DNA of 64,000 nt, from NCBI RefSeq assembly GCF_035582795.1, contig NW_027445436.1, forward strand, positions 3,656,770-3,720,769, read 5' to 3'. Source of the stretch: Mycteria americana. Taxonomy: Eukaryota > Chordata > Aves > Ciconiiformes > Ciconiidae. Below the pieces are notes generated by a model, which was not told the DNA's origin, did no database searches, and saw nothing but the letters and a program-made list of their open reading frames with translations. Each line of letters begins with the position of its first letter. Positions within the stretch are counted from its first letter, which is position 1. Shown piece by piece: positions 1-64,000 of the stretch. The position numbers and the translations under genes were made by a program.

Positions 1-2204
1 AGTTACACCTACTGCCTCTCTATTATCCAATTGCTGGATTGTGGAAATTTTAATCATCTGTGGCCTTCTTTGATCCAACAGTAATGCAATGGGATTCAGG
101 GTGGAGGTAGGGGTGGACAAGCAAGAGGTGAGGAAAGTTCAGGGAGCAGATGCACCTTTTAAATTCAGATGTCATTGTTTCAGTGTCTAAAGATTACCAC
201 CTACTTGGGAACATCACACTAGCCATGAGTTCTAGGCATACATGTGGCATCTCTGGATCTTCTAGATTTGCAATCCAATTTCTTGGTATCATGTGAAAGC
301 AGTGAGTCTCCTTTTTTCTGATTAAAAAAAAAATCCTCTTCCTGTCACTGATGAGGAACAATAAATCAAATTCTAAATGTACCTTTTCAGTGTACTGATG
401 GGACAGGGGCCAAAAGAAATAAACAGAAATTCTCCTGTTCTGAAAAATAAGATCCACTCTGCACTGGAACAAAAATCTTTCCACTTTCCAAAGTATACAG
501 CCAGAGCTTCTGAGCAGCCCATATGCCTAATTCTTCTCCAGTATGCCCAGGCCCATCTGGAGGATCAAAACTCTGAACATCAGGACTGTTCTCAAATAAC
601 AAACATCTTTATGCCAGCCAAACCCAGAGTAGCATTACTTTTTCTATTTCTTTAAAAGAAACACCTGCCTGAAGATGGGGAATTGGTATTTAGACCTTTG
701 GGGGAATGAAAATGGGGGGGGGGGGAGAAATAGTGTTACTTGTAACATTACTACAGTACTGCAGGGAAAGCTCTCCTGAGCAAATGGATGTTGATATGAA
801 ACTGCTACTACAGGCTATGAAATGATCCTGTCACCTCAAAGTAAATATGTTTAAGAACGAATTGTCTTTATTCAACAGAGATCTATTATACAAGGTGAGT
901 AGGGATTCCTTTGCCTTCTGTAAAGGCATAGGTTATACGTTACCCTGTCTGGAATGTCCACGAGAAAGTTGCTTAATACTTTCAACAGTACTTAAAGGGA
1001 AAGGGAAGGCAACTGTTATCAGTTGGGCTCCCCTTGGGGGATGCTGTGATGATAACTTTCCTGTTTAAATTTGGGAAATACATAGTGCACAAATGAATGA
1101 GCTTCATTGTCTTTGAGGTTTCCCGTGTGAGTCATGGTGTAGATTCTACATAATTACATTCAAATTACTGGGACAGGCATCAGCATGCGAACAGGTTATG
1201 GACAAACATATAGCTATGTGATTCTATCAGCTATACAAATGAAAATTAGCTCCTTTTCCATACTATTTGCCATGTTGTCTGTAGGTGTTACACATAGGTT
1301 AGTGATAATATGTAAATATGTTTTCAGAACTTAGAGAAATCTCATCTGGAGAATAAATCAATGTAAAAACCTTACAGGAAATTTGCTGAAAGCCAGTATT
1401 AGTAATTCATTTAACATCAAACCTACCAAACGTGTCTATTTTGGGGGCCCAAATACAGAAGTTTAAGCCAAATACTCTAGCAAGAGCACTTTTTCATCAC
1501 TGTTCAGACAACCTTGTTTCCACATTTCCAGTGTAGCATGGAGACACATTAAACAGACAGTGGTGAGAAAGATGGCAGAGTGGCTGTCAAGTCAAGAGGT
1601 ATTTAGAAAAGGCTTGCTAAAGGAACAGCAATACAAATATCTGTAATAAACTTCAGAGCATGTCTAATGTACCTCAGTGCTCCCAGGAACATGAGCGAAT
1701 TCAGGTGCTGCATGCTTTCTTTTCACACTTTCACTCCTGAGTAATCTGATTCATAGATATTTATTAAATATTATTTATGTCAAACAAAAGTTTCCTACAG
1801 TTCATATGAAGTGTGAATAGGAATGCTTTTTTTTTTTTAATTATCAGAATGTTTCTGAAGCTTGTTGTTCCCTGTCACCCAGAGAATTTTTCTCTGTGGA
1901 GGCTGAGGAGGAGGGGAAGGAGGGAAGGAAGTCTTGCAGAACAACCTGAGAACAAGTTTCACCACTGACCACTGCCTACTAGTCCTTTTATTTATTGCTG
2001 TTATCTTTTCTTTGCTATGAAAAGAAGTCCAAGTCTTTCCCCATGGTAAAGTACATTGTGTTTAGTGATGGGCAACTGGAACATATAATAAATGTTTTTA
2101 AAAATCAATTTCTGGTGTTCTGTGCCTTGTCTCTGAATGCAAGCAGAAATGCTTGCATTCTGCTTGCAATATAAAGGATGAAGTACATGTGCACTCATTT
2201 TTTA
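1..2204. other. AT-rich DNA without recognised gene (left arm)
   Basis: No coding pattern, repeat family or RNA gene was recognised. Visible details are a run of 12 G at 714-725, a purine-rich tract around 1900-1935, and a perfect 11-bp hairpin at 2135-2160. A good splice-donor match (CAAG|GTGAGT) sits at 891-900, but no exon could be built around it. Confidence 0.6.
2135..2160. repeat. Perfect 11-bp hairpin with 4-base loop
   Basis: GAATGCAAGCA (2135-2145), loop GAAA, then its exact reverse complement TGCTTGCATTC (2150-2160). A third, partial copy of the unit follows directly (TGCTTGCAAT). It lies just outside the 3' end of a CR1 fragment. The mirror copy is at 62405-62430. No function is evident. 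Confidence 0.8.
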
Positions 2205-2563
2205 TCTTAGAATCAGAATATCCTGAGTTGGAAGGGACCCATGAGGAGTCCAACTCCTGACTCTACATAGGGTGACCTAAAAGTTAAACCATATATCTAA
2301 GAGCTTTGTCCAAGCACTTGAACACCAACAGGCTTGGGGCCATGACGACTTCCCTGGGGAGCTTGTTCCAGTGCTTGACCACCCACTCAGTGAAGAACAT
2401 CCAGTCTGAACTTCCCCGGATGCAGCTTTAAGCATTCCCTCATGTCCTATCACTGGACAACAGAGAGAAGAGATCAGCACCTCTCTCTCCTCTCCCCCTC
2501 ATGAGGAATTTGTTGATAGCAATGAGGTCACCCCTCAGTCTCCTCTTCTCTAAGCTGAACAAA
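2205..2563 (-). mobile_element. Old CR1 3' fragment (left arm)
   Basis: On the minus strand this reads as the last part of a CR1 LINE. It encodes remnants of the ORF2 C-terminus ([15 protein letters not shown], then a tract resembling [16 protein letters not shown]), followed by the 3' UTR. The UTR ends in the family's typical sequence, seen on the plus strand as AGAATCAGAATATCCTGAG and GGAAGGGACCC. Many frame breaks mark it as older than the adjoining CR1 at 2564-4045. It starts exactly where that younger element's tail ends. Confidence 0.8.
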
Positions 2564-4045
2564 TCACAGAACCACAGAATCACAGAATCGTATAGGTTGG
2601 AAAAGACCTTTAAGATCATCAAGTCCAACCGTTAACCTAACACTACCAAGACCACCACTACACCATGTCCCTAAGCACCTCATCCAAACGTCCTTTAAAT
2701 ACGTCCAGGGATGGCGACTCAACCACTTCCCTGCGCAGCCTGTTCCAATGCTTGATAACCCTTTCAGTGAAGTAAAATTTCCTAATATCCAGTCTAAACC
2801 TCCCCTGGCGCAACTTGAGGCCATTTCCTCTTGTCCTATCACTTGTTACTTGGGAGAAGAGACCGACCCCCACCTCTCTACAACCTCCTTTCAGGTAGTT
2901 GTAGAGAGCGATAAGGTCTCCCCTCAGCCTCCTTTTCTCCAGGCTAAACAACTCCAGTTCCCTCAGCCACTCCTCATAAGACTTGTGCTCTAGACCCTTC
3001 ACCAGCTTCGTTGCCCTTCTCTGGACACGCTCCAGCACCTCAATGTCTCTCTTGTAGTGAGGGGACCAAAACCGAACACAGTATTCAAGGTGCAGCCTCA
3101 CCAGTGCCAAGTACAGGGGGACAATCACTTCCCTAGTCCTGCTGGCCACACTATTTTTGATACAAGCCAGGATGCCATTGGCTTTCTTGGCCACCTGGGC
3201 ACACTGCTGCCTCATATTCAGCCGGCTGTCAACCAACACCCCCAGGTCCTTTTCTGCCTGGCAGCTTTCCAGCCACTCTTCCCCAAGCCTATAGCGTTGC
3301 ATGGGGTTGCTGTGGCCCAAGTGCAGGACCTTGCACTTAGCCTTGTTGAACCTCATACAATTGGCCCCAGCCCATCAATGCAGCCTGTCCAGGTCCCTCT
3401 GCAGAGCCTTCCTACCCTCAAGCAGATCAACACTCCCGCCCAACTTGGTGTCGTCTGCAAACTTACTGAGGGTGCACTCGATCCCTTCGTCCAGATCATT
3501 GATAAAGATATTAAACAGAACTGGCCCCAACACAGAGCCCTGGGGCACACCACTTGTGACTGGCCGCCAACTGGAGTAAACTCCATTCACCACCACTCTT
3601 TGGGCCCGGCCAGCCAGCCAGTTCTTTACCTAGCGAAGAGTACACCCATCCAAGCCATGAGCAGCCAGTTTCTCCAGGAGAATGCTGTGGGAAACGGCGT
3701 CAAAGGCTTTACTAAAGTCCAGGTAAACAACATCCACAGCCTTTCCCTCATCCACTAGGCGGGTCACCTTGTCATAGAAGGAGATCAGGTTGGTCAAGCA
3801 GGACCTGCCTTTCATAAACCCATGCTGGCTGGGCTTGATCCCTTGGTTATCCCCTACATGCCGTGTGATGGCACTCAAGATGATCTGCTCCATCAGCTTT
3901 CCTGGTACCAAGGTCAGGCTGACAGGCCTGTAGTTCCCCGGATCCTCCTTCCGGCCCTTCTTGTAGATGGGTGTCACATTTGCTAACCTCCAGTCAACTG
4001 GGACCTCCCCGGTTAGCCAGGACTGCTGGTAAATGATGGAAACTG
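2564..4045 (-). mobile_element. CR1 LINE, 5'-truncated, RT half of ORF2 (left arm)
   Basis: Minus-strand CR1 retrotransposon, truncated at the 5' end within the reverse transcriptase. The frame from 3977 down to 2658 is open except for two stops: TAG at 3630-3632 and TGA at 3375-3377. Visible RT blocks are [68 protein letters not shown] and the catalytic KFADDTKLG (FADD at 3450-3461). The C-terminal block ends at RDMV* (2658). The 3' UTR finishes with the CR1 octamer tail, ATTCTGTG-type repeats on the minus strand, at 2564-2595. Few lesions make it one of the younger insertions here. The 5' limit is approximate. Confidence 0.92.
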
Positions 4046-7000
4046 GCTTCCAGGCCCTTCAGACTTCCAGGCACTTCATCACAAAACTGCACTTGTTATC
4101 AGCCTCAAGGGCAGGCAAGACCAGAGCTGCTACAAAGGAAGTGTAAGAAAGATGGTTGCCTGGGGCCTCTGTAAGGGAAGCATTAAATAGGGGGTGAGGA
4201 GAAGACTTCAAGAAGGACAGAATAATGTCCATTTCCTTTTGCCCTGGTTAGTCCTAGTACTGACCCTATTTTGGGGGAGTTTCAGTTCTGGATCTAATAC
4301 GTAGTGGGGAGGGGAACACTAAATTGGCTCAATTATCTGAAGACTCCTATCCATCAAAATATCTGGGTATGCATAAAAGTGTTTCAATTTTTTTTTCTAG
4401 ACTCAGTTTAACTTCTTTCTGTGCTGGGGAGCCCCTTTTCTGTCACATAGTGGGCTTGTACCATGCCCAGTTTACGCTCTGTGTATTGCAGAGTGGCTGT
4501 ATTGCATGTGGATAGTAGACCAAGTTCTTCCCAGAAGCAGTGGGCTCACTGAGCACCTGCTACACTACAAAGGTCTGCGAATGCCCCAGGAAACAGCATA
4601 AGTGTTGGTGACAATTCAAACAACTTGTTCCTAGCAGTCTTTTTTCTACAAAGGACAACTCAAGAATATACAAGGGAATAGGATGTATATTGGGTGAGAC
4701 ATTCTGGAATTGGTAGTCTAACCTTATTTACAACTTTGGGGCCTCCTTCATTGTGTAATGGATGTGTTTGTCATGTAACAGAAGAGAACCTGAAGAAACT
4801 CCACAAAAGCTGGTGGGTAGAAGTGGGCTTCTGTCAGTGCTCGAAATATTCACCTCCCCATCACCTGCTGCCAGCTTGTTCCCAAGTTGTCCCCAGGAAA
4901 GAGACCCTCTGGGAATACACCACCACAAATTGTGCTAGAAGGTCACGTGTGGCCTGGGGAAGGAATGAAGGCCGAGTACCTGAGACTTAGAAAATGATCC
5001 TGCTAAACACTTTTTGACCTTTCTTTTTAGCAGGTTTTGTTGTTGTTGCTTTTTCTATTCTGTAAGGGAAGAGATTTTATTCTAACAATAATATCTGAGG
5101 AACGAGTACACAAAAATCATAATTTGGGGATTTGGATGAAAAGTGCTCTTAATTATTTTATTGTATTCCTGCTATTGGCCACTGTAACTAACACCAGTTC
5201 ACCTCCATGAGAATGGTTGACAGAAATCTAAAAAAGTTTTTTAGTAGGGAATAATATCTAACTCTGGAAGGAATTATCTATGCCAATTCTCCTAACACTC
5301 GATAACTTTCTCATACAGCTAATTAGCCCAAGCAAAGTTTAGCTCAAGTACACTAGTAGGACTACAGCTGCACCCACTACCACTTAGTATCAAAACTGTC
5401 TTCATAAGCTAGCTCATATAGCTCAAGATGGTGTGTGTTTTGCTTTCTAGACATATCCTCAGTTTTAATGGGAAAAAGGTTCATGTTTGAGAAGATTATG
5501 TGTACCAATGAAATAACATTTTTCTTCTCACACATGCTTTGAGCCAAGCACAAGTAAAAACATGGGGCCTTGCCCTTAGAACTCGCAGGGACTATGGAGC
5601 CGAATTCTAGACTTATTTATACTAATTGCAAGGAGACAATTTGAGATTTGGCCTAGTAAAGAGAAACAATCTCTTATTCTTTCCATGTTTATTCACTGTT
5701 GAATGTTCTCAGGGAATCTTGCTTCACCCATCCCTTATTTTCCTCAGATTTTTCCTATGGGTATTTGATAGAATATTCAATTTCTGGATGTCTTTTGTAC
5801 TACTGATCACCAGCAGTGAAAACCTGGTCCCCTTGACCTAATTCTGGACCATGGTTCTCTCATTGCTCTAAGAAGTTTGCAGTCAGAGTTTCACACCTCA
5901 AACACAATCCCATGCAGCCAACTCCCCTCAACTCTCTCCTCCTTATCTGATTTCTCCTTCTCTGTTTGAACATGAGGAGAGACAGCTCAGGAGTTAATTT
6001 AACAAATCTCAAGAATATTCTCCTATAGGATGTGTCATCACTAGTAGAGATATGGGACAGATTCAGTCATGCTCTGAAGGGAGGCTGGGTGGCTTGCAAG
6101 GGTATGTGCCATGTGCAGGCAGTAATAATGGGGTAACAGGGAAAAAGCCTCAGTCCCTTTAGTTTGTTACCCCATTCCTCCTTGTCAGCTTTCAGAGTTA
6201 ATTCAAATAATCTCTCAAGTTTTTCTAACATAAAATTATTTCACTGGAATATTGGATGACTAGCAACACTAGGTAAAGCTAGCTTGCCACTAACACTACA
6301 GGCTTTTTAAACCATCGTTTGACATAATGTACTATTTCAAACTTTTGCTCTGTGTTTTGGCCAGCTCAATTTAAGAATGAGATTACAGTCAAACGTAATG
6401 TTTTTCTATGTTGCTATGACTTGTGTTAGTAGCAGCTCTGGAGAGAAGATACTTGTAACTCTCTAAGTGTTACAACCACATAGATATATGGAACACTCAA
6501 TCAGGATTTCCTTTTCTCTAGTTCCACTTAAATTTCCTAATAGATTTTATCCATGCTTACCTGTTTTAATATAAGATATTTGTACTGAATATTGTTTAGG
6601 AACTGGTGTTTATGCATGAAGAATATGAGTCTGGCAGTCAACATAGATTAATGTACTAGACTTCCATCTTCCATCTGAAGGAAAGGCATAGGCATTAACA
6701 ATTAGGATACCTCTAAAATAGCTTTGTTTGCAGACTACTGATGCTGACTGGCTTCATTGGACTACATATTCTCCAATTCCACTCTCTTACTACATTCGGA
6801 CCTTTTTTGCATTTGATATCTGTTTCTTACATGAAAGGCAATGAAGAAAACAGTTACAGTCTCCATCATGCTTATTTTTAAGGAACTATTTTTGAGCTAG
6901 CTAATAAGCACCTTTTTACATGTGATGCTGCATGAGGAAATCAGGGTTGATCAGGACAGAATGAATAAAATGTGTTTGCACAAATTCACAACAGCTATAT

Positions 7001-7187
7001 ATTCAACTGAGATAAGACAGAATGTTCTTTAGGGTTGGGTCCAGTCTTCTCAATGCATAAACTATCTTTGAAGTAGTGAAACACAGATGTCCTGATTGCT
7101 TAGCTATATAAGGCAGGCTCACTTTTGCTCTTTGTTTCTGATCTGGTGACTTTTTAATGCTTTTTCTGCATATTAAGTCACTTTCTA
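4046..7187. other. AT-rich DNA without recognised gene (left arm)
   Basis: Nothing recognised. Short open frames (for example 4694-4990 and 5626-5841) resemble no known family, lack splice or start context, and are of chance size. Confidence 0.6.
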
Positions 7188-7470
7188 CGCATCCGGTGCC
7201 GGCAGCGCGGTGTACAGGGGGTGTTCCTGAACCGGGGGAACCTCAGGGGAGCAGAGAGACCCACCAGGAGCCCGCAGCTCGCGCGAGAGCGGCTGATGAG
7301 ACCTGGGCAGGGCCAGGAGCAAACGGCGGCCAAGCCTCCCCCCACGTATAAAAGAAGCCCCTAGGGAGCGCTAGCGACTAGGAGTGCTGCGAACAGGGTG
7401 GGCAAACAGGGCGTGGCGCAGCAGTTCGCGCGGAAGGGTGCTGAAGCTCTGCTAGCTTGACCAGGGAGCA
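7188..7470 (+). promoter_or_regulatory. CR1 5' UTR / internal promoter region (left arm)
   Basis: GC-rich leader of the full-length CR1, ending at the ORF1 ATG (7471). LINE promoters lie inside their 5' UTR, so transcription in the plus direction could begin here. That is inferred from the family and no core motif was identified. A short open frame (7157-7351) crosses it and is judged to be chance. Confidence 0.6.
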
Positions 7471-8582
7471 ATGGTATCCACCCGGCAGAAGGCCATGGCC
7501 TCTCTAAGCTCTGCACCCGCCACGACTGACGCAGCTTCCCAGACAGAGCTCCGATGGGAGCATGTTGCCACCCAGGTGTCAGGCTGCAGGGTGTGCCCTA
7601 CTCTTATGCCAGTACCAAACAGCAGCAGTGAGCACACCTGTGGGAGGTGTGCCCAGGTAGAGGAAATCCTCTGCTTAGTGACAGAGCTCTGGGAGGAGGT
7701 GAGTAGGTTGAGGAGTATCAGGGAGTGTGAGAGAGAGACTGACTACTGGAATCGCACCCTACCTTCCCTGAGACAGGCCCAACAGGCAGACAGGGCGCAT
7801 GATATGGAGGGTTCCCTATCCTCTCTCCGCCTGGCTGAACACAGTGACTCAAGGGATAGGGGGCAATGGCAACAAGTTCCTGCCCGGCGCAGCAGGCGCG
7901 TCTCCTCTGTGACTACCCCACCTTCCCAGGTGCCCTTGCATAATAGGTATGAGGCTCTGCAAATGGAACCGAACAATGACGAGGACGATGGTTCATCTAG
8001 GTTGGTGGTGTCGCAAAGGTTAAGTCGGCCTACACCCTGCGTCAAAACCACTTCCATAAAGAAAAAAAGACAGGTCATTGTCATAGGAGACTCTCTTCTG
8101 AGGGGAATAGAAGGCCCAATATGCAGACCAGACCCACTTCTTAGGGAAGTCTGCTGCCTCCCTGGGGCCCAGGTTAAAGATGTGAAGAGAAAACTTCCTA
8201 CCCTGGTATGGCCCTTGGATTATTATCCATTGTTGCTTTTTCATGTAGGCAGCGACAAAGTTGCAATAAGAAGTCCAAGGGCAATCAAGAGAGACTTCAG
8301 GGCCTTGGGATGACTGCTTAAGGGATCAGGAGCACAAGTAGTGTTCTCCTCTATCCTTCCAGTTGCAGGGAATGATGAGGGAAGAAACAGGAAGACCCAG
8401 CAGATCAATACCTGGCTCCGAGCCTGGTGTCACAGGCAGAATTTGGGGGGTTTTGATCATGGGTCGGTCTACACAACACCAGGCCTGCTGGTGACAGACA
8501 GGGTGCACCTGTCTCAAAGGGGAAAAGGATCTTTGCACAGGAGTTAGCAGGGCTCATTGAAAGAGCTTTAAACTACATTTGA
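7471..8582 (+). pseudogene. CR1 ORF1 (zinc-knuckle/coiled-coil and esterase-like), broken (left arm)
   Basis: First CR1 reading frame. CR1 ORF1 proteins bind the element's RNA and carry an esterase-like domain. Seen here: an N-terminal Cys/His cluster (HTCGRCAQVEEIL), a short heptad-like helix (TELWEEVSRLRS), a charged linker, and the esterase start VIVIGDSLLRG (GDS motif). Further on come HVGSDKVAIRSPRAIKRDFRALG and, after an in-frame TGA at 8311-8313 (probably CGA to TGA), QVVFSSILPVAGNDEGRN and DHGSVYTTPGLLVTDRVHLSQRGK. About one base is missing in the A run near 8521-8526, which shifts the frame before the expected end at about 8582. Confidence 0.88.
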
Positions 8583-8754
8583 AGGGGGGAAAGGGCTTGC
8601 TAGTGGCTTGCTAGTGATAAGCCTGGGGGCGTCATGCCAATGTTTGAGGGACGGTGTGCTAGCGAGGTCCTTCAGCCTGCTCCACGATGTGCTGAGTACA
8701 CTGGAGCACATTTGAAAAGTATATACTAATGCACGCAGCACCTTAGCCATCTCA

Positions 8755-11642
8755 GTGGGGGTTGGGGATGGAGATCCATGCAGCAGCAAAGACCCAAGGG
8801 TTGTTGAAGTGTTAGAAACCACGGAAGCACCTGAAAGCAGTCACATAGGAATTAGGGCTTCTCCCCCAAAGAAGGTGGCAGGATCAATAGCCCAACTGAA
8901 GTGCATCTACACCAATGCACGCAGCATGGCAACAGACAGGAGGAGTTGGAAGCCATTGTGCAGCTGGAAAGCTGTGGCATAGTTGCAATCACAGAAACAT
9001 GGTGGGATGGCTCGCACAACTGGAGTGCGGCGATGGATGGCTATAAACTCTTCAGGAGGGATAGGCAAGGCAGGAGAGGCGGTGGGGTAGCCCTGTATGT
9101 TAGGGAGTGTTTTGATTGTCTCGAGCTTAATGACGGTGACGATAGGGTTTAGTGCTTATGGGTAAGAATCAGGGGGAAGGCCAACAAGGCAGATATTGTG
9201 GTGGGAGTCTGTTATAGACCACCCAACCAGGATGAAGAGGCAGACAGAATATTCTATAAGCAGCTGGGAGAAGTCTCACAATCGCTAGCCCTTGTTCTTG
9301 TGGGGGACTTCAACCTGCCGGATGTCTGCTGGAAATACAATACAGCAGAGAGGAAACAGTCTAGGAGGTTCCTGGAGTGTGTGGCAGATAACTTCCTGAC
9401 ACAGCTGGTGAGTGAGCCAACTAGGGAAGGCGCCCCGCTGGACCTCTTGTTTGTGAACAGAGAAGGACTTGTGGGTGACGTGACGGTTGGAGGCTGTCTT
9501 GGGCATAGCGATCACAAAATGACAGAGTTTTAGATTCTTGGAGAAGTAAGGAGGGGGGTCAGCAGAACTGCTACCTTGGACTTCCGGAGGGCAGACTTTG
9601 GCCTGTTTAGGGGCCTGGTTGACAGAGTGCCTTGGGAAGCAGTCCTGAAGGGCAAAGGAGTCCAGGAAGGCTGGACATTCTTCAAGTAGGAAATCTTAAA
9701 GGTGCAAGAGCAGGCCGTCCCCATGTGTCGAAAGACGAGCCGGCAAGGAAGAAGACCGGCCTGGCTGAACAGAGAGCTTTGGCTGGAACTCAGGAAAAAA
9801 AGAGAGTTTATGACCTTTGGAAGAAGAGGCAGGCAACTCAGGAGGACTACAAAGATGTCGTGAGGTTATGCAGGGAGAAAATTAGAAGGGCCAAAGCCCA
9901 ACTAGAACTTAATCTGTCTACTGCTGTAAAAGACAATAAAAAGTGTTTCTATAAATACATTAACAACAAAAGGAGGGCTAAGGAGAATCTCCATCCTTTA
10001 TTGGACACAGGGGGAAACATAATGACAGAGGCTGAGGTACTTAATGCCTTCTTTGCCTCAGTCTTTAATAAAGATCGGTTGTTCTCCAGGTACCCAGCCC
10101 CCTGAGCTGGAAGACAGGGATGGGGAGCAGAATGAAGCCCCCATAATCCCAGGGGAAATGGTTAGCGACCTGCTACACCACTTACACACACACAAGTCTA
10201 TGGGGCCGGATGGGATCCACCCAAGGGTACTGAGGGAGCTGGCAGAAGTGCTCACCAAGCCCCTTTCAATCCTTTATCAGCAGTCCTGGCTAACCGGGGA
10301 GGTCCCAGTTGACTGGAGGTTAGCAAATGTGACGCCCGTCTACAAGAAGGGCCGGAAGGAGGATCCGGGGAACTACAGGCCTGTCATTCTGACCTCAGTG
10401 CCAGGAAGGTTATGGAGCAGATCATCTTGAGTGCCATCACATGGCACGTACAGGACAACCAGGTGATCAGGCCCAGTCAGCATGGGTTTATGAAAGGCAG
10501 GTCCTGCTTGACTAACCTGATCTCCTTCTGTGACAAGGTGACCCACTTAGTGGATGAGGGAAAGGCTGTGGATGTTGTTTACCTGGACTTTAGTAAAGCC
10601 TTTGACACCGTTTCCCACAGCATTCTCCTGGAGAAACTGGCTGCTCATGGCTTGGACGGGCGTAGTCTTCGCTGAGTAAAAAACTGGCTGGCTGGCCAGG
10701 CCCAAAGAGTTGTGGTGAATGGAGTTTACTCCAGTTGGCGGCTGGTCACAAGTGGTGTTCCCCAGGGCTCAGTACTGGGGCCAGTTCTGTTTAATATCTT
10801 TATCAGTGATCTGGATGAGGGGATCGAGTGCACCCTCAGTAAGTTTGCAGGTGACACCAAGTTGGGCGGGAGGAGTGCTGATCTGATTGAGGGTAGGAAG
10901 GCTCTGCAGAGGGATCTGGACAGGATGGATCGATGGGTCGAGGCCAATTGTATGAGGTTCAACAAGGCTAAGTGCAAGGTCCTGCTCTTGGGTCATAACA
11001 ACCCCATGCAGGCTTGGGGAAGAGTGGCTGGAAAGCTGCCAGGCAGAAAAGGACCTGGGGGTGTTGGTCGACAGCCGGCTGAATATGAGGCAGCAGTGTG
11101 CCCAGGTGGCCAAGAAGGCCGATAGCATCCTGGCTTGTATCAGAAATAGCGTGGTCAGCAGGACCAGGGAAGTGATTGTCCCTTTGTACTCGGCACTGGT
11201 GAGACCACACCTTGAATACTGTGTTCGGTTTTGGGCCCCTCACTACAAGAAAAACATTGAAGTGCTGGAGTGCATCCAAAGAAGAGCAATGAATCTGGTG
11301 AAGGGTCTAGAGCACAAGTCCTATGAGGAGCTGCTGAGGGAACTGGGATTGTTTAGCCTGGAGAAAAGGAGGCTCAGGGGAGACCTTATTGCTCTCTACA
11401 ACTACCTGAAAGGAGGTGGTAGAGAGGTGGGGGTCGGTCTCTTCTCCCAAGTAACTAGTGATAGGACAAGAGGAAATGGCCTCAAGTTGCACCAGGGGAG
11501 GTTTAGATTGGATATTAGGAAATTTTACTTCACCGAAAGGGTTATCAAGCATTGGAACAGGCTGCGCAGGGAAGTGGTTGAGTCGCCATCCCTGGAGGTA
11601 TTTAAAAGACGTGTAGACCTGGCACTTACGGACATGTTTTAG
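8755..11642 (+). pseudogene. CR1 ORF2 (endonuclease-reverse transcriptase), dead (left arm)
   Basis: Second CR1 frame: an apurinic-type endonuclease followed by reverse transcriptase. Endonuclease blocks seen: LKCIYTNARSM, IVAITETWWDGSHNWS, RRGGGVALYVRECFDC, VVGVCYRPPNQDEEAD, LVLVGDFNLPDVCW, and GHSDHKMTEF ending in a stop near 9533. RT blocks seen: [42 protein letters not shown] and [17 protein letters not shown]. The catalytic box reads FAGD (10844-10855) instead of FADD because codon 10850-10852 is GGT. Frame changes lie near 8930, 9540-9800, 10080-10110, 10400-10430 and 11020-11060, with further in-frame stops. The protein cannot be made and the RT would be inactive. Confidence 0.92.
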
Positions 11643-11724
11643 TGGTGGACTTGGCAGTGCTAGGTTAACGGTTGGACTTGGTGATCTTAAAGGTCTTTTC
11701 CAACCTAAACGATTCTATGATTAT

Positions 11725-13519: not shown

Positions 13520-13580
13520 GATCATAGAATCATAGAATAGTTTGGGTTGGAAGGGACCTTTAAAGGTCATCTAGATCCAA
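13520..13580 (-). mobile_element. CR1 3' end, very short (left arm)
   Basis: About 60 bp matching only the CR1 terminus. Read on the minus strand it has GATGACCTTTAAAGGTCCC, then CTTCCAACCCAAAC, then two ATTCTATG octamers. This is an extreme 5' truncation. Mirror copy at 50985-51045. Confidence 0.88.
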
Positions 13581-22079: not shown

Positions 22080-22124
22080 AACCTCTGCATAAATCTCCCT
22101 CGGAACAAGCAAGAAGCCCTCTCC

Positions 22125-22161
22125 ACGCACGCACACACGCACGCACGCACGCACGCACGCA
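22125..22161. repeat. (CGCA)n tetranucleotide repeat
   Basis: ACGC-type repeat of about 37 bp, with one CACA interruption, at the upstream edge of the CpG island. Its complement occurs at 22521-22546. Alternating purine-pyrimidine with CG steps is a Z-DNA-prone composition. Confidence 0.92.
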
Positions 22162-50984: not shown

Positions 50985-51045
50985 TTGGATCTAGATGACC
51001 TTTAAAGGTCCCTTCCAACCCAAACTATTCTATGATTCTATGATC
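50985..51045 (+). mobile_element. CR1 3' end, very short (right arm)
   Basis: Mirror of 13520-13580, here in sense orientation: GATGACCTTTAAAGGTCCC, then two ATTCTATG octamers. Confidence 0.88.
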
Positions 51046-52840
51046 TCCCAGGCCATATGTAAACAATGGGACTTCAGATAGTCTCCACCTACCCTGATCT
51101 AGTTGCATGCTCCAGCTGTCTCCTGACTCCATGTTTAGGTAAGATCTGGGCATAGCTCATTTGTCCCTGTGTCTATGAGAAAGTGGACAGAATGGAACAG
51201 ATCTACAACATGCTTCACCTGCATCTTTTATGAGGTCTAGCTGTATGATTAGGAGACGAGGAACTCGGGGTCCTCTAAGACACTTGGTAATTGTGCATCT
51301 TTAATGTAAGCACTGTGGCCTCTGTTATTTTGTACAACCTTGACATTCATCAGTTTTCTCAGGTATCAAAAGAGAACTTGACTTTTAAGTTCTTCAAAAA
51401 GGGAACTGGGTATCATAATACTGAGCATTTCAACACCTAACTTTTAGGATACCAAGTTCCTCTGGTAGATTCTATAGTCTTTTGGAACTTACACCTGCTA
51501 TGGGAAAAGGTGGACACTTAAGAATGGGATATCCAAAAAGCAATGTAAGTGGCAAACAATCTAAACTAGCCAATAGGGAAATGCTGAGGAAAAGAGTATC
51601 TTCTTAAAATTTTATCCTTTTCATAAGGCTTCTTAGTGCTATAGCTGAGAGAAATTTCTTTGCCATTTAATGGGATTTTTACAAATATATTAGGAAGGTT
51701 TCAGCAACCTCTTCTTTTTCCACAAATTGTTCTCTCTTCAAATTGTTATTGTTAATCTGTTTCTTACCTTTGTTGCTAGTTTTCTATTAATGACAGTATA
51801 ACAGCTGGTTACATTCTGCAATGGGAACAGAAAGGTAGCTTAATTGGTGCCACTGAGCATTTTATAAGTGCATTTTTTCCTCCAAGATGTGCTGTATCTG
51901 ACAAGCCTTACAGACCACAGAATACAGCTAGTAAGAAGTTTTTAACCAGCATGTGACACTGAACAGTCTTAGATAAATAAAAATAGTAAAAATAGGCTAC
52001 TAAAAAGATGAAAAATCTGATCTCAGAGAAATGTTACATAGGGAACGTGTCAACATTCATTTGAATAAATTTGTTACCTAAGTTTTGCTTTTTAAACAGT
52101 GGCTTCCTTCTTTTCAAGCCCCATTTTCTTATTATATTTGATCCTGTCATGAAGTTCTAAGAGTGAATTTGTGAGCTCTCCTTTCCATGACAACAGACTG
52201 ATGCTTTAAATATAGGATTATGATGAATCCAACAGAGGACTGAGTAAAAGGAAAACAAAACTATTAGTATGTAAGACTTTATTATAACACATATTCAGTT
52301 AAAAAGGTAGAGAAAGGAATATAAATTTTGAATATACTTCCACTTTTTAATACTACAGTTATGTATGATGGTCTGTACATTGTGGTTATTTCTTTCAGAT
52401 GTTCTCAATATTTGATATAACATCTGTGGCACTCAGATGTTGCCAAAAGTTTCAGACATATTCATTATTCTTGTTCTTATATATCGAATGTAAGTCACAG
52501 TGGGTTTTCATGACTACTTGAAGTTGTAAATAAGCTCAGCAGAGGCAGTAGGCTCTCATCACCTTTGAAAAATCATGCTCAAAACATTTCAGGAAGAACT
52601 CTGAAAAACAGGAAAATGTTGGGAAATATGGCTGTACATGAAGTTGTCTTAGTAAGTATGCACTTTATGTTAAGAAATGCCATGGATTTAACATATTAAG
52701 AGTAAAAAAAAATCACTTTTGTTTTAAAATATTTTCAGTCCAGCACAATCTAGTTTATGTAAGGAAAAAAAAAAAAGATACTGTCTTCTATAAGTGACGT
52801 TCCCTTTGGCTGAATCCTATCATTATGAATTGTCTTGAAT
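51046..52840. other. AT-rich DNA without recognised gene (right arm)
   Basis: Mirror of 11725-13519. Nothing recognised. Confidence 0.6.
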
Positions 52841-52922
52841 ATAATCATAGAATCGTTTAGGTTGGAAAAGACCTTTAAGATCACCAAGTCCAACCGTTAA
52901 CCTAGCACTGCCAAGTCCACCA

Positions 52923-55810
52923 CTAAAACATGTCCGTAAGTGCCAGGTCTACACGTCTTTTAAATACCTCCAGGGATGGCGACTCAACCACTTCCCTGCG
53001 CAGCCTGTTCCAATGCTTGATAACCCTTTCGGTGAAGTAAAATTTCCTAATATCCAATCTAAACCTCCCCTGGTGCAACTTGAGGCCATTTCCTCTTGTC
53101 CTATCACTAGTTACTTGGGAGAAGAGACCGACCCCCACCTCTCTACCACCTCCTTTCAGGTAGTTGTAGAGAGCAATAAGGTCTCCCCTGAGCCTCCTTT
53201 TCTCCAGGCTAAACAATCCCAGTTCCCTCAGCAGCTCCTCATAGGACTTGTGCTCTAGACCCTTCACCAGATTCATTGCTCTTCTTTGGATGCACTCCAG
53301 CACTTCAATGTTTTTCTTGTAGTGAGGGGCCCAAAACCGAACACAGTATTCAAGGTGTGGTCTCACCAGTGCCGAGTACAAAGGGACAATCACTTCCCTG
53401 GTCCTGCTGACCACGCTATTTCTGATACAAGCCAGGATGCTATCGGCCTTCTTGGCCACCTGGGCACACTGCTGCCTCATATTCAGCCGGCTGTCGACCA
53501 ACACCCCCAGGTCCTTTTCTGCCTGGCAGCTTTCCAGCCACTCTTCCCCAAGCCTGCATGGGGTTGTTATGACCCAAGAGCAGGACCTTGCACTTAGCCT
53601 TGTTGAACCTCATACAATTGGCCTCGACCCATCGATCCATCCTGTCCAGATCCCTCTGCAGAGCCTTCCTACCCTCAATCAGATCAGCACTCCTCCCGCC
53701 CAACTTGGTGTCACCTGCAAACTTACTGAGGGTGCACTCGATCCCCTCATCCAGATCACTGATAAAGATATTAAACAGAACTGGCCCCAGTACTGAGCCC
53801 TGGGGAACACCACTTGTGACCAGCCGCCAACTGGAGTAAACTCCATTCACCACAACTCTTTGGGCCTGGCCAGCCAGCCAGTTTTTTACTCAGCGAAGAC
53901 TACGCCCGTCCAAGCCATGAGCAGCCAGTTTCTCCAGGAGAATGCTGTGGGAAACGGTGTCAAAGGCTTTACTAAAGTCCAGGTAAACAACATCCACAGC
54001 CTTTCCCTCATCCACTAAGTGGGTCACCTTGTCACAGAAGGAGATCAGGTTAGTCAAGCAGGACCTGCCTTTCATAAACCCATGCTGACTGGGCCTGATC
54101 ACCTGGTTGTCCTGTACGTGCCATGTGATGGCACTCAAGATGATCTGCTCCATAACCTTCCTGGCACTGAGGTCAGAATGACAGGCCTGTAGTTCCCCGG
54201 ATCCTCCTTCCGGCCCTTCTTGTAGACGGGCGTCACATTTGCTAACCTCCAGTCAACTGGGACCTCCCCGGTTAGCCAGGACTGCTGATAAAGGATTGAA
54301 AGGGGCTTGGTGAGCACTTCTGCCAGCTCCCTCAGTACCCTTGGGTGGATCCCATCCGGCCCCATAGACTTGTGTGTGTGTAAGTGGTGTAGCAGGTCGC
54401 TAACCATTTCCCCTGGGATTATGGGGGCTTCATTCTGCTCCCCATCCCTGTCTTCCAGCTCAGGGGGCTGGGTACCTGGAGAACAACCGATCTTTATTAA
54501 AGACTGAGGCAAAGAAGGCATTAAGTACCTCAGCCTCTGTCATTATGTTTCCCCCTGTGTCCAATAAAGGATGGAGATTCTCCTTAGCCCTCCTTTTGTT
54601 GTTAATGTATTTATAGAAACACTTTTTATTGTCTTTTACAGCAGTAGACAGATTAAGTTCTAGTTGGGCTTTGGCCCTTCTAATTTTCTCCCTGCATAAC
54701 CTCACGACATCTTTGTAGTCCTCCTGAGTTGCCTGCCTCTTCTTCCAAAGGTCATAAACTCTCTTTTTTTCCTGAGTTCCAGCCAAAGCTCTCTGTTCAG
54801 CCAGGCCGGTCTTCTTCCTTGCCGGCTCGTCTTTCGACACATGGGGACGGCCTGCTCTTGCACCTTTAAGATTTCCTACTTGAAGAATGTCCAGCCTTCC
54901 TGGACTCCTTTGCCCTTCAGGACTGCTTCCCAAGGCACTCTGTCAACCAGGCCCCTAAACAGGCCAAAGTCTGCCCTCCGGAAGTCCAAGGTAGCAGTTC
55001 TGCTGACCCCCCTCCTTACTTCTCCAAGAATCTAAAACTCTGTCATTTTGTGATCGCTATGCCCAAGACAGCCTCCAACCGTCACGTCACCCACAAGTCC
55101 TTCTCTGTTCACAAACAAGAGGTCCAGCGGGGCGCCTTCCCTAGTTGGCTCACTCACCAGCTGTGTCAGGAAGTTATCTGCCACACACTCCAGGAACCTC
55201 CTAGACTGTTTCCTCTCTGCTGTATTGTATTTCCAGCAGACATCCGGCAGGTTGAAGTCCCCCACAAGAACAAGGGCTAGCGATTGTGAGACTTCTCCCA
55301 GCTGCTTATAGAATATTCTGTCTGCCTCTTCATCCTGGTTGGGTGGTCTATAACAGACTCCCACCACAATATCTGCCTTGTTGGCCTTCCCCCTGATTCT
55401 TACCCATAAGCACTAAACCCTATCGTCACCGTCATTAAGCTCGAGACAATCAAAACACTCCCTAACATACAGGGCTACCCCACCGCCTCTCCTGCCTTGC
55501 CTATCCCTCCTGAAGAGTTTATAGCCATCCATCGCCGCACTCCAGTTGTGCGAGCCATCCCACCATGTTTCTGTGATTGCAACTATGCCACAGCTTTCCA
55601 GCTGCACAATGGCTTCCAACTCCTCCTGTCTGTTGCCATGCTGCGTGCATTGGTGTAGATGCACTTCAGTTGGGCTATTGATCCTGCCACCTTCTTTGGG
55701 GGAGAAGCCCTAATTCCTATGTGACTGCTTTCAGGTGCTTCCGTGGTTTCTAACACTTCAACAACCCTTGGGTCTTTGCTGCTGCATGGATCTCCATCCC
55801 CAACCCCCAC
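52923..55810 (-). pseudogene. CR1 ORF2, dead (right arm)
   Basis: Mirror of 8755-11642. It has the same endonuclease and RT blocks, the same FAGD substitution at the catalytic box (codon at 53713-53715) and the same frame breaks. Shared lesions show they predate the duplication or were spread between the arms by gene conversion. Confidence 0.92.
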
Positions 55811-55982
55811 TGAGATGGCTAAGGTGCTGCGTGCATTAGTATATACTTTTCAAATGTGCTCCAGTGTACTCAGCACATCGTGGAGCAGGCTGAAGGACCT
55901 CGCTAGCACACCGTCCCTCAAACATTGGCATGACGCCCCCAGGCTTATCACTAGCAAGCCACTAGCAAGCCCTTTCCCCCCT

Positions 55983-57094
55983 TCAAATGTAGTTTAAAGC
56001 TCTTTCAATGAGCCCTGCTAACTCCTGTGCAAAGATCCTTTTCCCCTTTGAGACAGGTGCACCCTGTCTGTCACCAGCAGGCCTGGTGTTGTGTAGACCG
56101 ACCCATGATCAAAACCCCCCAAATTCTGCCTGTGACACCAGGCTCGGAGCCAGGTATTGATCTGCTGGGTCTTCCTGTTTCTTCCCTCATCATTCCCTGC
56201 AACTGGAAGGATAGAGGAGAACACTACTTGTGCTCCTGATCCCTTAAGCAGTCATCCCAAGGCCCTGAAGTCTCTCTTGATTGCCCTTGGACTTCTTATT
56301 GCAACTTTGTCGCTGCCTACATGAAAAAGCAACAATGGATAATAATCCAAGGGCCATACCAGGGTAGGAAGTTTTCTCTTCACATCTTTAACCTGGGCCC
56401 CAGGGAGGCAGCAGACTTCCCTAAGAAGTGGGTCTGGTCTGCATATTGGGCCTTCTATTCCCCTCAGAAGAGAGTCTCCTATGACAATGACCTGTCTTTT
56501 TTTCTTTATGGAAGTGGTTTTGACGCAGGGTGTAGGCCGACTTAACCTTTGCGACACCACCAACCTAGATGAACCATCGTCCTCGTCATTGTTCGGTTCC
56601 ATTTGCAGAGCCTCATACCTATTATGCAAGGGCACCTGGGAAGGTGGGGTAGTCACAGAGGAGACGCGCCTGCTGCGCCGGGCAGGAACTTGTTGCCATT
56701 GCCCCCTATCCCTTGAGTCACTGTGTTCAGCCAGGCGGAGAGAGGATAGGGAACCCTCCATATCATGCGCCCTGTCTGCCTGTTGGGCCTGTCTCAGGGA
56801 AGGTAGGGTGCGATTCCAGTAGTCAGTCTCTCTCTCACACTCCCTGATACTCCTCAACCTACTCACCTCCTCCCAGAGCTCTGTCACTAAGCAGAGGATT
56901 TCCTCTACCTGGGCACACCTCCCACAGGTGTGCTCACTGCTGCTGTTTGGTACTGGCATAAGAGTAGGGCACACCCTGCAGCCTGACACCTGGGTGGCAA
57001 CATGCTCCCATCGGAGCTCTGTCTGGGAAGCTGCGTCAGTCGTGGCGGGTGCAGAGCTTAGAGAGGCCATGGCCTTCTGCCGGGTGGATACCAT
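55983..57094 (-). pseudogene. CR1 ORF1, broken (right arm)
   Basis: Mirror of 7471-8582, with ATG at 57092-57094. It has the same in-frame TGA (56252-56254) and the same one-base loss near 56039-56044. Confidence 0.88.
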
Positions 57095-57377
57095 TGCTCC
57101 CTGGTCAAGCTAGCAGAGCTTCAGCACCCTTCCGCGCGAACTGCTGCGCCACGCCCTGTTTGCCCACCCTGTTCGCAGCACTCCTAGTCGCTAGCGCTCC
57201 CTAGGGGCTTCTTTTATACGTGGGGGGAGGCTTGGCCGCCGTTTGCTCCTGGCCCTGCCCAGGTCTCATCAGCCGCTCTCGCGCGAGCTGCGGGCTCCTG
57301 GTGGGTCTCTCTGCTCCCCTGAGGTTCCCCCGGTTCAGGAACACCCCCTGTACACCGCGCTGCCGGCACCGGATGCG

Positions 57378-60300
57378 TAGAAAGTGACTTAATATGCAGA
57401 AAAAGCATTAAAAAGTCACCAGATCAGAAACAAAGAGCAAAAGTGAGCCTGCCTTATATAGCTAAGCAATCAGGACATCTGTGTTTCACTACTTCAAAGA
57501 TAGTTTATGCATTGAGAAGACTGGACCCAACCCTAAAGAACATTCTGTCTTATCTCAGTTGAATATATAGCTGTTGTGAATTTGTGCAAACACATTTTAT
57601 TCATTCTGTCCTGATCAACCCTGATTTCCTCATGCAGCATCACATGTAAAAAGGTGCTTATTAGCTAGCTCAAAAATAGTTCCTTAAAAATAAGCATGAT
57701 GGAGACTGTAACTGTTTTCTTCATTGCCTTTCATGTAAGAAACAGATATCAAATGCAAAAAAGGTCCGAATGTAGTAAGAGAGTGGAATTGGAGAATATG
57801 TAGTCCAATGAAGCCAGTCAGCATCAGTAGTCTGCAAACAAAGCTATTTTAGAGGTATCCTAATTGTTAATGCCTATGCCTTTCCTTCAGATGGAAGATG
57901 GAAGTCTAGTACATTAATCTATGTTGACTGCCAGACTCATATTCTTCATGCATAAACACCAGTTCCTAAACAATATTCAGTACAAATATCTTATATTAAA
58001 ACAGGTAAGCATGGATAAAATCTATTAGGAAATTTAAGTGGAACTAGAGAAAAGGAAATCCTGATTGAGTGTTCCATATATCTATGTGGTTGTAACACTT
58101 AGAGAGTTACAAGTATCTTCTCTCCAGAGCTGCTACTAACACAAGTCATAGCAACATAGAAAAACATTACGTTTGACTGTAATCTCATTCTTAAATTGAG
58201 CTGGCCAAAACACAGAGCAAAAGTTTGAAATAGTACATTATGTCAAACGATGGTTTAAAAAGCCTGTAGTGTTAGTGGCAAGCTAGCTTTACCTAGTGTT
58301 GCTAGTCATCCAATATTCCAGTGAAATAATTTTATGTTAGAAAAACTTGAGAGATTATTTGAATTAACTCTGAAAGCTGACAAGGAGGAATGGGGTAACA
58401 AACTAAAGGGACTGAGGCTTTTTCCCTGTTACCCCATTATTACTGCCTGCACATGGCACATACCCTTGCAAGCCACCCAGCCTCCCTTCAGAGCATGACT
58501 GAATCTGTCCCATATCTCTACTAGTGATGACACATCCTATAGGAGAATATTCTTGAGATTTGTTAAATTAACTCCTGAGCTGTCTCTCCTCATGTTCAAA
58601 CAGAGAAGGAGAAATCAGATAAGGAGGAGAGAGTTGAGGGGAGTTGGCTGCATGGGATTGTGTTTGAGGTGTGAAACTCTGACTGCAAACTTCTTAGAGC
58701 AATGAGAGAACCATGGTCCAGAATTAGGTCAAGGGGACCAGGTTTTCACTGCTGGTGATCAGTAGTACAAAAGACATCCAGAAATTGAATATTCTATCAA
58801 ATACCCATAGGAAAAATCTGAGGAAAATAAGGGATGGGTGAAGCAAGATTCCCTGAGAACATTCAACAGTGAATAAACATGGAAAGAATAAGAGATTGTT
58901 TCTCTTTACTAGGCCAAATCTCAAATTGTCTCCTTGCAATTAGTATAAATAAGTCTAGAATTCGGCTCCATAGTCCCTGCGAGTTCTAAGGGCAAGGCCC
59001 CATGTTTTTACTTGTGCTTGGCTCAAAGCATGTGTGAGAAGAAAAATGTTATTTCATTGGTACACATAATCTTCTCAAACATGAACCTTTTTCCCATTAA
59101 AACTGAGGATATGTCTAGAAAGCAAAACACACACCATCTTGAGCTATATGAGCTAGCTTATGAAGACAGTTTTGATACTAAGTGGTAGTGGGTGCAGCTG
59201 TAGTCCTACTAGTGTACTTGAGCTAAACTTTGCTTGGGCTAATTAGCTGTATGAGAAAGTTATCGAGTGTTAGGAGAATTGGCATAGATAATTCCTTCCA
59301 GAGTTAGATATTATTCCCTACTAAAAAACTTTTTTAGATTTCTGTCAACCATTCTCATGGAGGTGAACTGGTGTTAGTTACAGTGGCCAATAGCAGGAAT
59401 ACAATAAAATAATTAAGAGCACTTTTCATCCAAATCCCCAAATTATGATTTTTGTGTACTCGTTCCTCAGATATTATTGTTAGAATAAAATCTCTTCCCT
59501 TACAGAATAGAAAAAGCAACAACAACAAAACCTGCTAAAAAGAAAGGTCAAAAAGTGTTTAGCAGGATCATTTTCTAAGTCTCAGGTACTCGGCCTTCAT
59601 TCCTTCCCCAGGCCACACGTGACCTTCTAGCACAATTTGTGGTGGTGTATTCCCAGAGGGTCTCTTTCCTGGGGACAACTTGGGAACAAGCTGGCAGCAG
59701 GTGATGGGGAGGTGAATATTTCGAGCACTGACAGAAGCCCACTTCTACCCACCAGCTTTTGTGGAGTTTCTTCAGGTTCTCTTCTGTTACATGACAAACA
59801 CATCCATTACACAATGAAGGAGGCCCCAAAGTTGTAAATAAGGTTAGACTACCAATTCCAGAATGTCTCACCCAATATACATCCTATTCCCTTGTATATT
59901 CTTGAGTTGTCCTTTGTAGAAAAAAGACTGCTAGGAACAAGTTGTTTGAATTGTCACCAACACTTATGCTGTTTCCTGGGGCATTCGCAGACCTTTGTAG
60001 TGTAGCAGGTGCTCAGTGAGCCCACTGCTTCTGGGAAGAACTTGGTCTACTATCCACATGCAATACAGCCACTCTGCAATACACAGAGCGTAAACTGGGC
60101 ATGGTACAAGCCCACTATGTGACAGAAAAGGGGCTCCCCAGCACAGAAAGAAGTTAAACTGAGTCTAGAAAAAAAAATTGAAACACTTTTATGCATACCC
60201 AGATATTTTGATGGATAGGAGTCTTCAGATAATTGAGCCAATTTAGTGTTCCCCTCCCCACTACGTATTAGATCCAGAACTGAAACTCCCCCAAAATAGG

Positions 60301-60519
60301 GTCAGTACTAGGACTAACCAGGGCAAAAGGAAATGGACATTATTCTGTCCTTCTTGAAGTCTTCTCCTCACCCCCTATTTAATGCTTCCCTTACAGAGGC
60401 CCCAGGCAACCATCTTTCTTACACTTCCTTTGTAGCAGCTCTGGTCTTGCCTGCCCTTGAGGCTGATAACAAGTGCAGTTTTGTGATGAAGTGCCTGGAA
60501 GTCTGAAGGGCCTGGAAGC
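57378..60519. other. AT-rich DNA without recognised gene (right arm)
   Basis: Mirror of 4046-7187. Nothing recognised. Confidence 0.6.
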
Positions 60520-62001
60520 CAGTTTCCATCATTTACCAGCAGTCCTGGCTAACCGGGGAGGTCCCAGTTGACTGGAGGTTAGCAAATGTGACACCCATCT
60601 ACAAGAAGGGCCGGAAGGAGGATCCGGGGAACTACAGGCCTGTCAGCCTGACCTTGGTACCAGGAAAGCTGATGGAGCAGATCATCTTGAGTGCCATCAC
60701 ACGGCATGTAGGGGATAACCAAGGGATCAAGCCCAGCCAGCATGGGTTTATGAAAGGCAGGTCCTGCTTGACCAACCTGATCTCCTTCTATGACAAGGTG
60801 ACCCGCCTAGTGGATGAGGGAAAGGCTGTGGATGTTGTTTACCTGGACTTTAGTAAAGCCTTTGACGCCGTTTCCCACAGCATTCTCCTGGAGAAACTGG
60901 CTGCTCATGGCTTGGATGGGTGTACTCTTCGCTAGGTAAAGAACTGGCTGGCTGGCCGGGCCCAAAGAGTGGTGGTGAATGGAGTTTACTCCAGTTGGCG
61001 GCCAGTCACAAGTGGTGTGCCCCAGGGCTCTGTGTTGGGGCCAGTTCTGTTTAATATCTTTATCAATGATCTGGACGAAGGGATCGAGTGCACCCTCAGT
61101 AAGTTTGCAGACGACACCAAGTTGGGCGGGAGTGTTGATCTGCTTGAGGGTAGGAAGGCTCTGCAGAGGGACCTGGACAGGCTGCATTGATGGGCTGGGG
61201 CCAATTGTATGAGGTTCAACAAGGCTAAGTGCAAGGTCCTGCACTTGGGCCACAGCAACCCCATGCAACGCTATAGGCTTGGGGAAGAGTGGCTGGAAAG
61301 CTGCCAGGCAGAAAAGGACCTGGGGGTGTTGGTTGACAGCCGGCTGAATATGAGGCAGCAGTGTGCCCAGGTGGCCAAGAAAGCCAATGGCATCCTGGCT
61401 TGTATCAAAAATAGTGTGGCCAGCAGGACTAGGGAAGTGATTGTCCCCCTGTACTTGGCACTGGTGAGGCTGCACCTTGAATACTGTGTTCGGTTTTGGT
61501 CCCCTCACTACAAGAGAGACATTGAGGTGCTGGAGCGTGTCCAGAGAAGGGCAACGAAGCTGGTGAAGGGTCTAGAGCACAAGTCTTATGAGGAGTGGCT
61601 GAGGGAACTGGAGTTGTTTAGCCTGGAGAAAAGGAGGCTGAGGGGAGACCTTATCGCTCTCTACAACTACCTGAAAGGAGGTTGTAGAGAGGTGGGGGTC
61701 GGTCTCTTCTCCCAAGTAACAAGTGATAGGACAAGAGGAAATGGCCTCAAGTTGCGCCAGGGGAGGTTTAGACTGGATATTAGGAAATTTTACTTCACTG
61801 AAAGGGTTATCAAGCATTGGAACAGGCTGCGCAGGGAAGTGGTTGAGTCGCCATCCCTGGACGTATTTAAAGGACGTTTGGATGAGGTGCTTAGGGACAT
61901 GGTGTAGTGGTGGTCTTGGTAGTGTTAGGTTAACGGTTGGACTTGATGATCTTAAAGGTCTTTTCCAACCTATACGATTCTGTGATTCTGTGGTTCTGTG
62001 A
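60520..62001 (+). mobile_element. CR1 LINE, 5'-truncated, RT half of ORF2 (right arm)
   Basis: Mirror of 2564-4045 in sense orientation. One frame runs from 60588 to 61907 with two stops (TAG at 60933-60935 and TGA at 61188-61190). It carries [23 protein letters not shown] and FADD. The octamer tail lies at about 61970-62001. Confidence 0.92.
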
Positions 62002-62360
62002 TTTGTTCAGCTTAGAGAAGAGGAGACTGAGGGGTGACCTCATTGCTATCAACAAATTCCTCATGAGGGGGAGAGGAGAGAGAGGTGCTGATCTCTTCTC
62101 TCTGTTGTCCAGTGATAGGACATGAGGGAATGCTTAAAGCTGCATCCGGGGAAGTTCAGACTGGATGTTCTTCACTGAGTGGGTGGTCAAGCACTGGAAC
62201 AAGCTCCCCAGGGAAGTCGTCATGGCCCCAAGCCTGTTGGTGTTCAAGTGCTTGGACAAAGCTCTTAGATATATGGTTTAACTTTTAGGTCACCCTATGT
62301 AGAGTCAGGAGTTGGACTCCTCATGGGTCCCTTCCAACTCAGGATATTCTGATTCTAAGA
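62002..62360 (+). mobile_element. Old CR1 3' fragment (right arm)
   Basis: Mirror of 2205-2563. It begins (TTTGTTCAGCTTAGAGAAGA) immediately after the tail of the younger CR1 and ends in GGGTCCCTTCCAACTCAGGA and an ATTCT terminus. Confidence 0.8.
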
Positions 62361-64000
62361 TAAAAAATGAGTGCACATGTACTTCATCCTTTATATTGCA
62401 AGCAGAATGCAAGCATTTCTGCTTGCATTCAGAGACAAGGCACAGAACACCAGAAATTGATTTTTAAAAACATTTATTATATGTTCCAGTTGCCCATCAC
62501 TAAACACAATGTACTTTACCATGGGGAAAGACTTGGACTTCTTTTCATAGCAAAGAAAAGATAACAGCAATAAATAAAAGGACTAGTAGGCAGTGGTCAG
62601 TGGTGAAACTTGTTCTCAGGTTGTTCTGCAAGACTTCCTTCCCTCCTTCCCCTCCTCCTCAGCCTCCACAGAGAAAAATTCTCTGGGTGACAGGGAACAA
62701 CAAGCTTCAGAAACATTCTGATAATTAAAAAAAAAAAAGCATTCCTATTCACACTTCATATGAACTGTAGGAAACTTTTGTTTGACATAAATAATATTTA
62801 ATAAATATCTATGAATCAGATTACTCAGGAGTGAAAGTGTGAAAAGAAAGCATGCAGCACCTGAATTCGCTCATGTTCCTGGGAGCACTGAGGTACATTA
62901 GACATGCTCTGAAGTTTATTACAGATATTTGTATTGCTGTTCCTTTAGCAAGCCTTTTCTAAATACCTCTTGACTTGACAGCCACTCTGCCATCTTTCTC
63001 ACCACTGTCTGTTTAATGTGTCTCCATGCTACACTGGAAATGTGGAAACAAGGTTGTCTGAACAGTGATGAAAAAGTGCTCTTGCTAGAGTATTTGGCTT
63101 AAACTTCTGTATTTGGGCCCCCAAAATAGACACGTTTGGTAGGTTTGATGTTAAATGAATTACTAATACTGGCTTTCAGCAAATTTCCTGTAAGGTTTTT
63201 ACATTGATTTATTCTCCAGATGAGATTTCTCTAAGTTCTGAAAACATATTTACATATTATCACTAACCTATGTGTAACACCTACAGACAACATGGCAAAT
63301 AGTATGGAAAAGGAGCTAATTTTCATTTGTATAGCTGATAGAATCACATAGCTATATGTTTGTCCATAACCTGTTCGCATGCTGATGCCTGTCCCAGTAA
63401 TTTGAATGTAATTATGTAGAATCTACACCATGACTCACACGGGAAACCTCAAAGACAATGAAGCTCATTCATTTGTGCACTATGTATTTCCCAAATTTAA
63501 ACAGGAAAGTTATCATCACAGCATCCCCCAAGGGGAGCCCAACTGATAACAGTTGCCTTCCCTTTCCCTTTAAGTACTGTTGAAAGTATTAAGCAACTTT
63601 CTCGTGGACATTCCAGACAGGGTAACGTATAACCTATGCCTTTACAGAAGGCAAAGGAATCCCTACTCACCTTGTATAATAGATCTCTGTTGAATAAAGA
63701 CAATTCGTTCTTAAACATATTTACTTTGAGGTGACAGGATCATTTCATAGCCTGTAGTAGCAGTTTCATATCAACATCCATTTGCTCAGGAGAGCTTTCC
63801 CTGCAGTACTGTAGTAATGTTACAAGTAACACTATTTCTCCCCCCCCCCCCATTTTCATTCCCCCAAAGGTCTAAATACCAATTCCCCATCTTCAGGCAG
63901 GTGTTTCTTTTAAAGAAATAGAAAAAGTAATGCTACTCTGGGTTTGGCTGGCATAAAGATGTTTGTTATTTGAGAACAGTCCTGATGTTCAGAGTTTTGA
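62361..64000. other. AT-rich DNA without recognised gene (right arm, window edge)
   Basis: Mirror of 565-2204, including the hairpin (62405-62430) and the 12-C run (63840-63851). The arm continues past the window. Confidence 0.6.

Follow-up and report, generated by a model that had tools for sequence, protein, structure and literature searches.

How did two inverted copies of at least 16.9 kb, set on either side of a long spacer that carries the gene NFIL3, come to be almost identical? The question is raised by the window, the whole stretch of 64,000 nucleotides that was analysed. A sequence-only reading had offered three answers: a recent duplication, continuing gene conversion between the arms as on sex-chromosome palindromes, or an assembly error. 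The sex-chromosome option is now strongly supported by a W-like NFIL3 copy; the data do not tell duplication from conversion, and the commonest forms of assembly error are unlikely. We consider it probable that this is a W-linked palindrome whose arms of at least 16.9 kb, non-coding and CR1- and LTR-like, with no gene detected in a partial search, enclose a 29.6-kb spacer with the W copy of NFIL3 (NFIL3W) and are kept alike by conversion.

Comparison of the window with itself (blastn) aligned 565-17483 (+) with 64000-47088 (-) over 16,919 columns with two mismatches and one gap (99.953% identity, gap counted), confirming the inverted arms and the spacer of about 29.6 kb that had been read from the letters, with both inner edges exact to the base. 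The palindrome and the differences between its arms are as follows.

565-17483, + strand: left palindrome arm, at least this long (blastn self-comparison)
47088-64000, - strand: right palindrome arm, inverted copy of 565-17483 (blastn self-comparison)
17484-47087, no strand: spacer, 29,604 bp, outside the inverted repeat (self-comparison)
12606, partner 51959, no strand: arm difference, A versus G in the right arm read in the same direction (arm alignment)
17469, partner 47102, no strand: arm difference, G (within a CpG) versus A in the right arm read in the same direction (arm alignment)
16666-16691, no strand: CA microsatellite, 26 bases in the left arm versus 20 in the right, a 6-bp gap (arm alignment)

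A large inverted repeat with arms more than 99.9% alike is characteristic of Y and W palindromes, and a chance origin of a 16.9-kb inverted match is ruled out. The outer ends of the arms lie outside the window because position 565 pairs with its last base (64000); if the arm continues, the partner of 1-564 would be in the bases past 64000. The two substitutions among 16,913 paired bases amount to 0.012% (Poisson 95% interval 0.0014-0.043%), and one of them (17469/47102) is 15 bp from the inner edge. Base-by-base alignment of the arms bears out the earlier observation that one microsatellite is the sole exception to an absence of net indels, the only gap being the 6 bp in the CA run. The long homopolymers are indeed equal, with seven of at least 8 bases in each arm (longest run 12), and none of the three arm differences is within one. 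The inner edges at 17483 and 47088 are sharp: no repeat with a second copy in the window crosses either of them, and the bases beyond the two edges, read by eye, have no common homology. A transposon at the inner edges was rejected for want of an edge-spanning repeat, a test that an element present once in the window would escape.

NFIL3 is present once in the window, in the spacer.

35218-36582, + strand: intact NFIL3 coding exon, 454 amino acids plus stop, W-like copy, very probably NFIL3W (open frame, Pfam, solved chains, tree, residues)
22001-25000, no strand: CpG-rich stretch (CpG observed/expected 0.92, 0.56 and 0.76 in three 1-kb bins)

The gene had been named correctly: its frame matches PF06529 (Vert_IL3-reg_TF; E 1.5e-171), the bZIP domain PF07716 (Pfam), and two solved chains named nuclear factor interleukin-3-regulated protein. 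Protein searches used 35215-36579, from one codon before the ATG through the last sense codon. Possession of the bZIP and Vert_IL3-reg_TF domains together with a place inside the W-like clade described below characterizes the W gametolog of NFIL3 (E4BP4), and this protein has both. The CpG-rich stretch upstream of the exon likely contains the NFIL3 promoter and 5' non-coding exon.

The NFIL3 gene of birds is on the Z, and some birds have a W gametolog. A first tree of 48 rows combined the window with 47 of 120 proteins listed (2,618 matched; 8,000 candidates scored): 44 rows named as birds, one unnamed row (P0025) and two reptile outgroups. The second tree leaves out Lamprotornis (a mosaic at the diagnostic sites, of 556 aa) and Turdus (385 aa at 78% coverage); it contains 46 NFIL3 proteins and is rooted on Alligator and Sphenodon. 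In it, 24 W-like rows group with the window in one clade with support of 100/99, up from 84/97 for the same split with Lamprotornis and Turdus included. The other 21 rows, among them emu, tinamou, guineafowl, two ducks and the two reptile outgroups, are outside it. Two species, Nycticryphes and Ptilorrhoa, are represented by one copy in the W-like and one in the Z-like group. The position of the window inside the W-like clade shifts between the two trees. The best four listed matches to the window protein are those of Pygoscelis papua, Accipiter gentilis, Calonectris borealis and Otus sunia (95, 95, 94 and 93% identity, respectively), and a 407-sequence cluster with Cathartes aura as its representative, also among the matches listed, is at 91%. 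The W-like rows used are all Neoaves. Among the rows used, guineafowl, ducks, emu and tinamou have Z-like NFIL3 only, which fits a split of the gametologs, or a loss, outside Neoaves.

Residues were compared at 16 diagnostic positions, defined as those at which the groups differ and a single residue is shared by 80% or more of the rows within each; the lists of W-like and Z-like rows came from the first tree, which contained the window, and Lamprotornis, Turdus and the window were left out when the residues were defined. The window protein has the W-like residue at all 16. Alligator has the W-like residue at 302 and gaps at 231 and 233, and the Z-like Ptilorrhoa row has it at two of the 16 (334 and 341). 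Lamprotornis has the W state at seven positions and the Z state at nine, in a row longer than the others (556 aa). Either chimeric Z/W gene models or assemblies, or remnants of conversion between Z and W, may account for the Lamprotornis (P0037) and Z-like Ptilorrhoa (P0006) rows. Because the window falls in the W-like clade (100/99), carries all 16 residues, and the collared flycatcher has NFIL3W among its tabulated W genes (PMC4468903), the palindrome is very probably W-linked, judged by one gene's tree and residues, with NFIL3W in its spacer. The DNA is most likely from the W of a Neoaves female. Location on the Y or W, another mark of a Y or W palindrome, is indicated here by the gene tree and residues alone.

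Part of each arm is retroelement sequence, listed here with the copies in the spacer; the names CR1, ORF1 and LTR are our assignments.

7456-11722, + strand: long decayed CR1-type LINE, left arm, resembling the spacer copy 26925-30250; mirror copy 52843-57109
2282-4049, - strand: CR1-type fragments, left arm (self-comparison); mirror copy 60516-62283
16367-16987, + strand: solo-LTR-like element, arm (self-blastn); mirror copy 47584-48198
19157-19728, 20623-21033 (partial), 32739-33320 and 40013-40558: LTR-like copies, spacer (self-comparison)
20003-20607 and 26925-30250: CR1-type pieces, spacer (self-comparison)

By self-comparison and translated search, CR1-type and LTR-like pieces cover about 6.7 kb of the 16.9-kb arm, and 2578-4049 and 10257-11722 are 91% alike. 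The long LINE has an open ORF1-like frame (7456-8313, 285 codons) and a reverse-transcriptase part broken by stops. The Pfam match to RVT_1 is in the spacer frame 26927-27832 only, and the arm frames are linked to it through similarity to the spacer copy. Pfam found nothing above cut-off in four of the seven left-arm frames of at least 150 aa, two of which (2658-3374 and 10956-11642) resemble the RVT_1-bearing frame, and no match (E 0.01) in 10 of 19 further left-side frames of at least 70 aa, one of them (197-526) outside the arm. A TssC match in frame 9623-10102 (E 0.00018, below cut-off) was taken as chance. An ampliconic palindrome would have gene copies in both arms; no arm gene was detected in this partial frame search, which short exons could escape; Rfam at gathering scores gave nothing in the window, and ARAGORN with bacterial settings gave no tRNA. 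By eye, the LTR-like copies 32739-33320 and 40013-40558 are about 550-580 bp long and bounded by TG at the start and CA at the end, and each seems to have a 5-bp target duplication (AATAC, and GTGTG within a GT repeat, respectively); copies 16367-16987 and 19157-19728 have no perfect target duplication by eye.

Under the reading we favour, that of arms kept alike by conversion, the inverted duplication probably arose through replication- or repair-based copying. Since the W is without a recombination partner along most of its length, its arms could pair with each other, and arm-to-arm gene conversion would then keep them alike, falling off close to the edge of the spacer. Intrachromatid crossing over between the arms would flip the spacer with NFIL3W. 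Two observations, each weak, lean toward conversion, a further mark of Y and W palindromes. The first is the edge-proximal substitution (15 bp), in a place where conversion is expected to break down; the chance of one of two substitutions being so near the edge is 0.0018 under random placement, for a single site chosen post hoc, and it could instead date from the formation of the junction. The second is base composition outside repeats, CpG island and coding sequence, with G+C of 36.4% in the arms (19 blocks) vs 34.0% in the spacer (37 blocks; 500-bp blocks, our own masks; permutation p 0.038), the direction expected of GC-biased conversion in a weak contrast that may be regional. A plain chi-square on the masked G+C (4.3e-6) was set aside in favour of the block permutation because neighbouring bases are not independent.

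The strongest alternative, possible though somewhat unlikely, is a genuine inverted duplication on the W, alike in its arms only because it is young, with no need of conversion. Bird substitution rates are 1 to 2.3e-9 per site per year. At these rates two substitutions in 16,913 bases correspond, with no conversion, to an age of about 26,000-59,000 years (limits about 3,000-214,000), so that the count fits an origin some tens of thousands of years ago, and the stops that break the retroelement frames are identical in both arms, as the mirrored frames show. Against a young duplication is the same edge-proximal substitution, one of only two, with its post hoc probability of 0.0018 under a uniform clock. 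The clock date was computed and is not decisive; if conversion acts, the age of the arms is free.

Assembly error, in which one arm was written twice via a chimeric read, a false graph loop or a misjoin of distant W copies, would also yield near-identical arms, but we consider it unlikely. Plain re-use of bases is not expected to leave two transitions and a difference in microsatellite length, and there is no N anywhere in the window. A hairpin foldback would leave no 29.6-kb spacer, and a haplotype duplicate is unexpected on a W, hemizygous as inferred from the tree; both forms are unlikely because of the three arm differences, the 29.6-kb unique spacer and W hemizygosity. A misjoin of two real, distant arm copies is a possible form of the error. 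A Z-linked or autosomal location, with an NFIL3 that is a fast or duplicated copy and not the W gametolog, is compatible with W-like rows that carry no chromosome label but scarcely credible given the clade support of 100/99, W-state residues at 16 of 16 positions and two species with one copy per group.

The favoured W-linked, conversion-kept palindrome has human parallels on the Y and on the X, a chromosome that recombines in females. The Y palindrome P6 has an arm divergence of about 0.02% and a spacer of 45,959 bp aligned, and conversion there, measured across 378 chromosomes, was much commoner than inversion (PMC3723533). The present palindrome resembles P6 in an arm divergence of the same order (0.012% vs about 0.02%) and in its long spacer; it differs in that P6 is on a mammalian Y with arms of about 104 kb aligned, and in that conversion was measured there and is inferred here (PMC3723533). 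On the human X, the inverted repeats of HsInv0389 flank FLNA and EMD, and inversion of their spacer is recurrent (PMC3961182). Intact genes between inverted repeats are common to both loci, whereas FLNA and EMD are on an X and their inversion was shown by genotyping, against one assembly here (PMC3961182).

In birds, New World sparrows and blackbirds have a W-linked palindrome with signs of conversion (Davis et al. 2010, per PMC3403216), likewise on a bird W; there the region with such signs includes part of a CHD1W intron, whereas here NFIL3W is in the spacer and arm genes were not found. The Pekin duck W has 38 palindromes, 15.2-345.5 kb in size and built of nested repeats, which are said to contain no robustly expressed functional genes (PMC7787181). 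The present palindrome differs in having an intact W-like gametolog in its spacer, and the two duck NFIL3 rows in the tree are Z-like. It has also been proposed that palindromic inverted triplications are the starting point of inverted copy-number changes, the spacer becoming longer through subsequent rearrangements (PMC10766186). By title and abstract, none of the papers listed on NFIL3 with a palindrome, on NFIL3W or on W-linked palindromes covers this locus, subscription literature being mostly outside that scope, and NFIL3 is absent from the main text of PMC7692361. W palindromes are already known, and that of NFIL3 is probably a further case.

It is odd in the place of its retained gene, in the spacer instead of the arms. 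A common account of palindromes on sex-limited chromosomes invokes the benefit of conversion to genes in the arms. Because NFIL3W is in the spacer, arm-to-arm conversion cannot repair it, and if the palindrome is real, its upkeep would not be explained by gene protection. It is conceivable, if unlikely, that an old W palindrome kept by conversion acts as a flip cassette in which single-copy NFIL3W inverts repeatedly between female lineages, its regulatory surroundings varying with orientation. If real, the palindrome would provide, in the orientation of its spacer and the differences between its arms, a marker for intrachromosomal recombination on a W.
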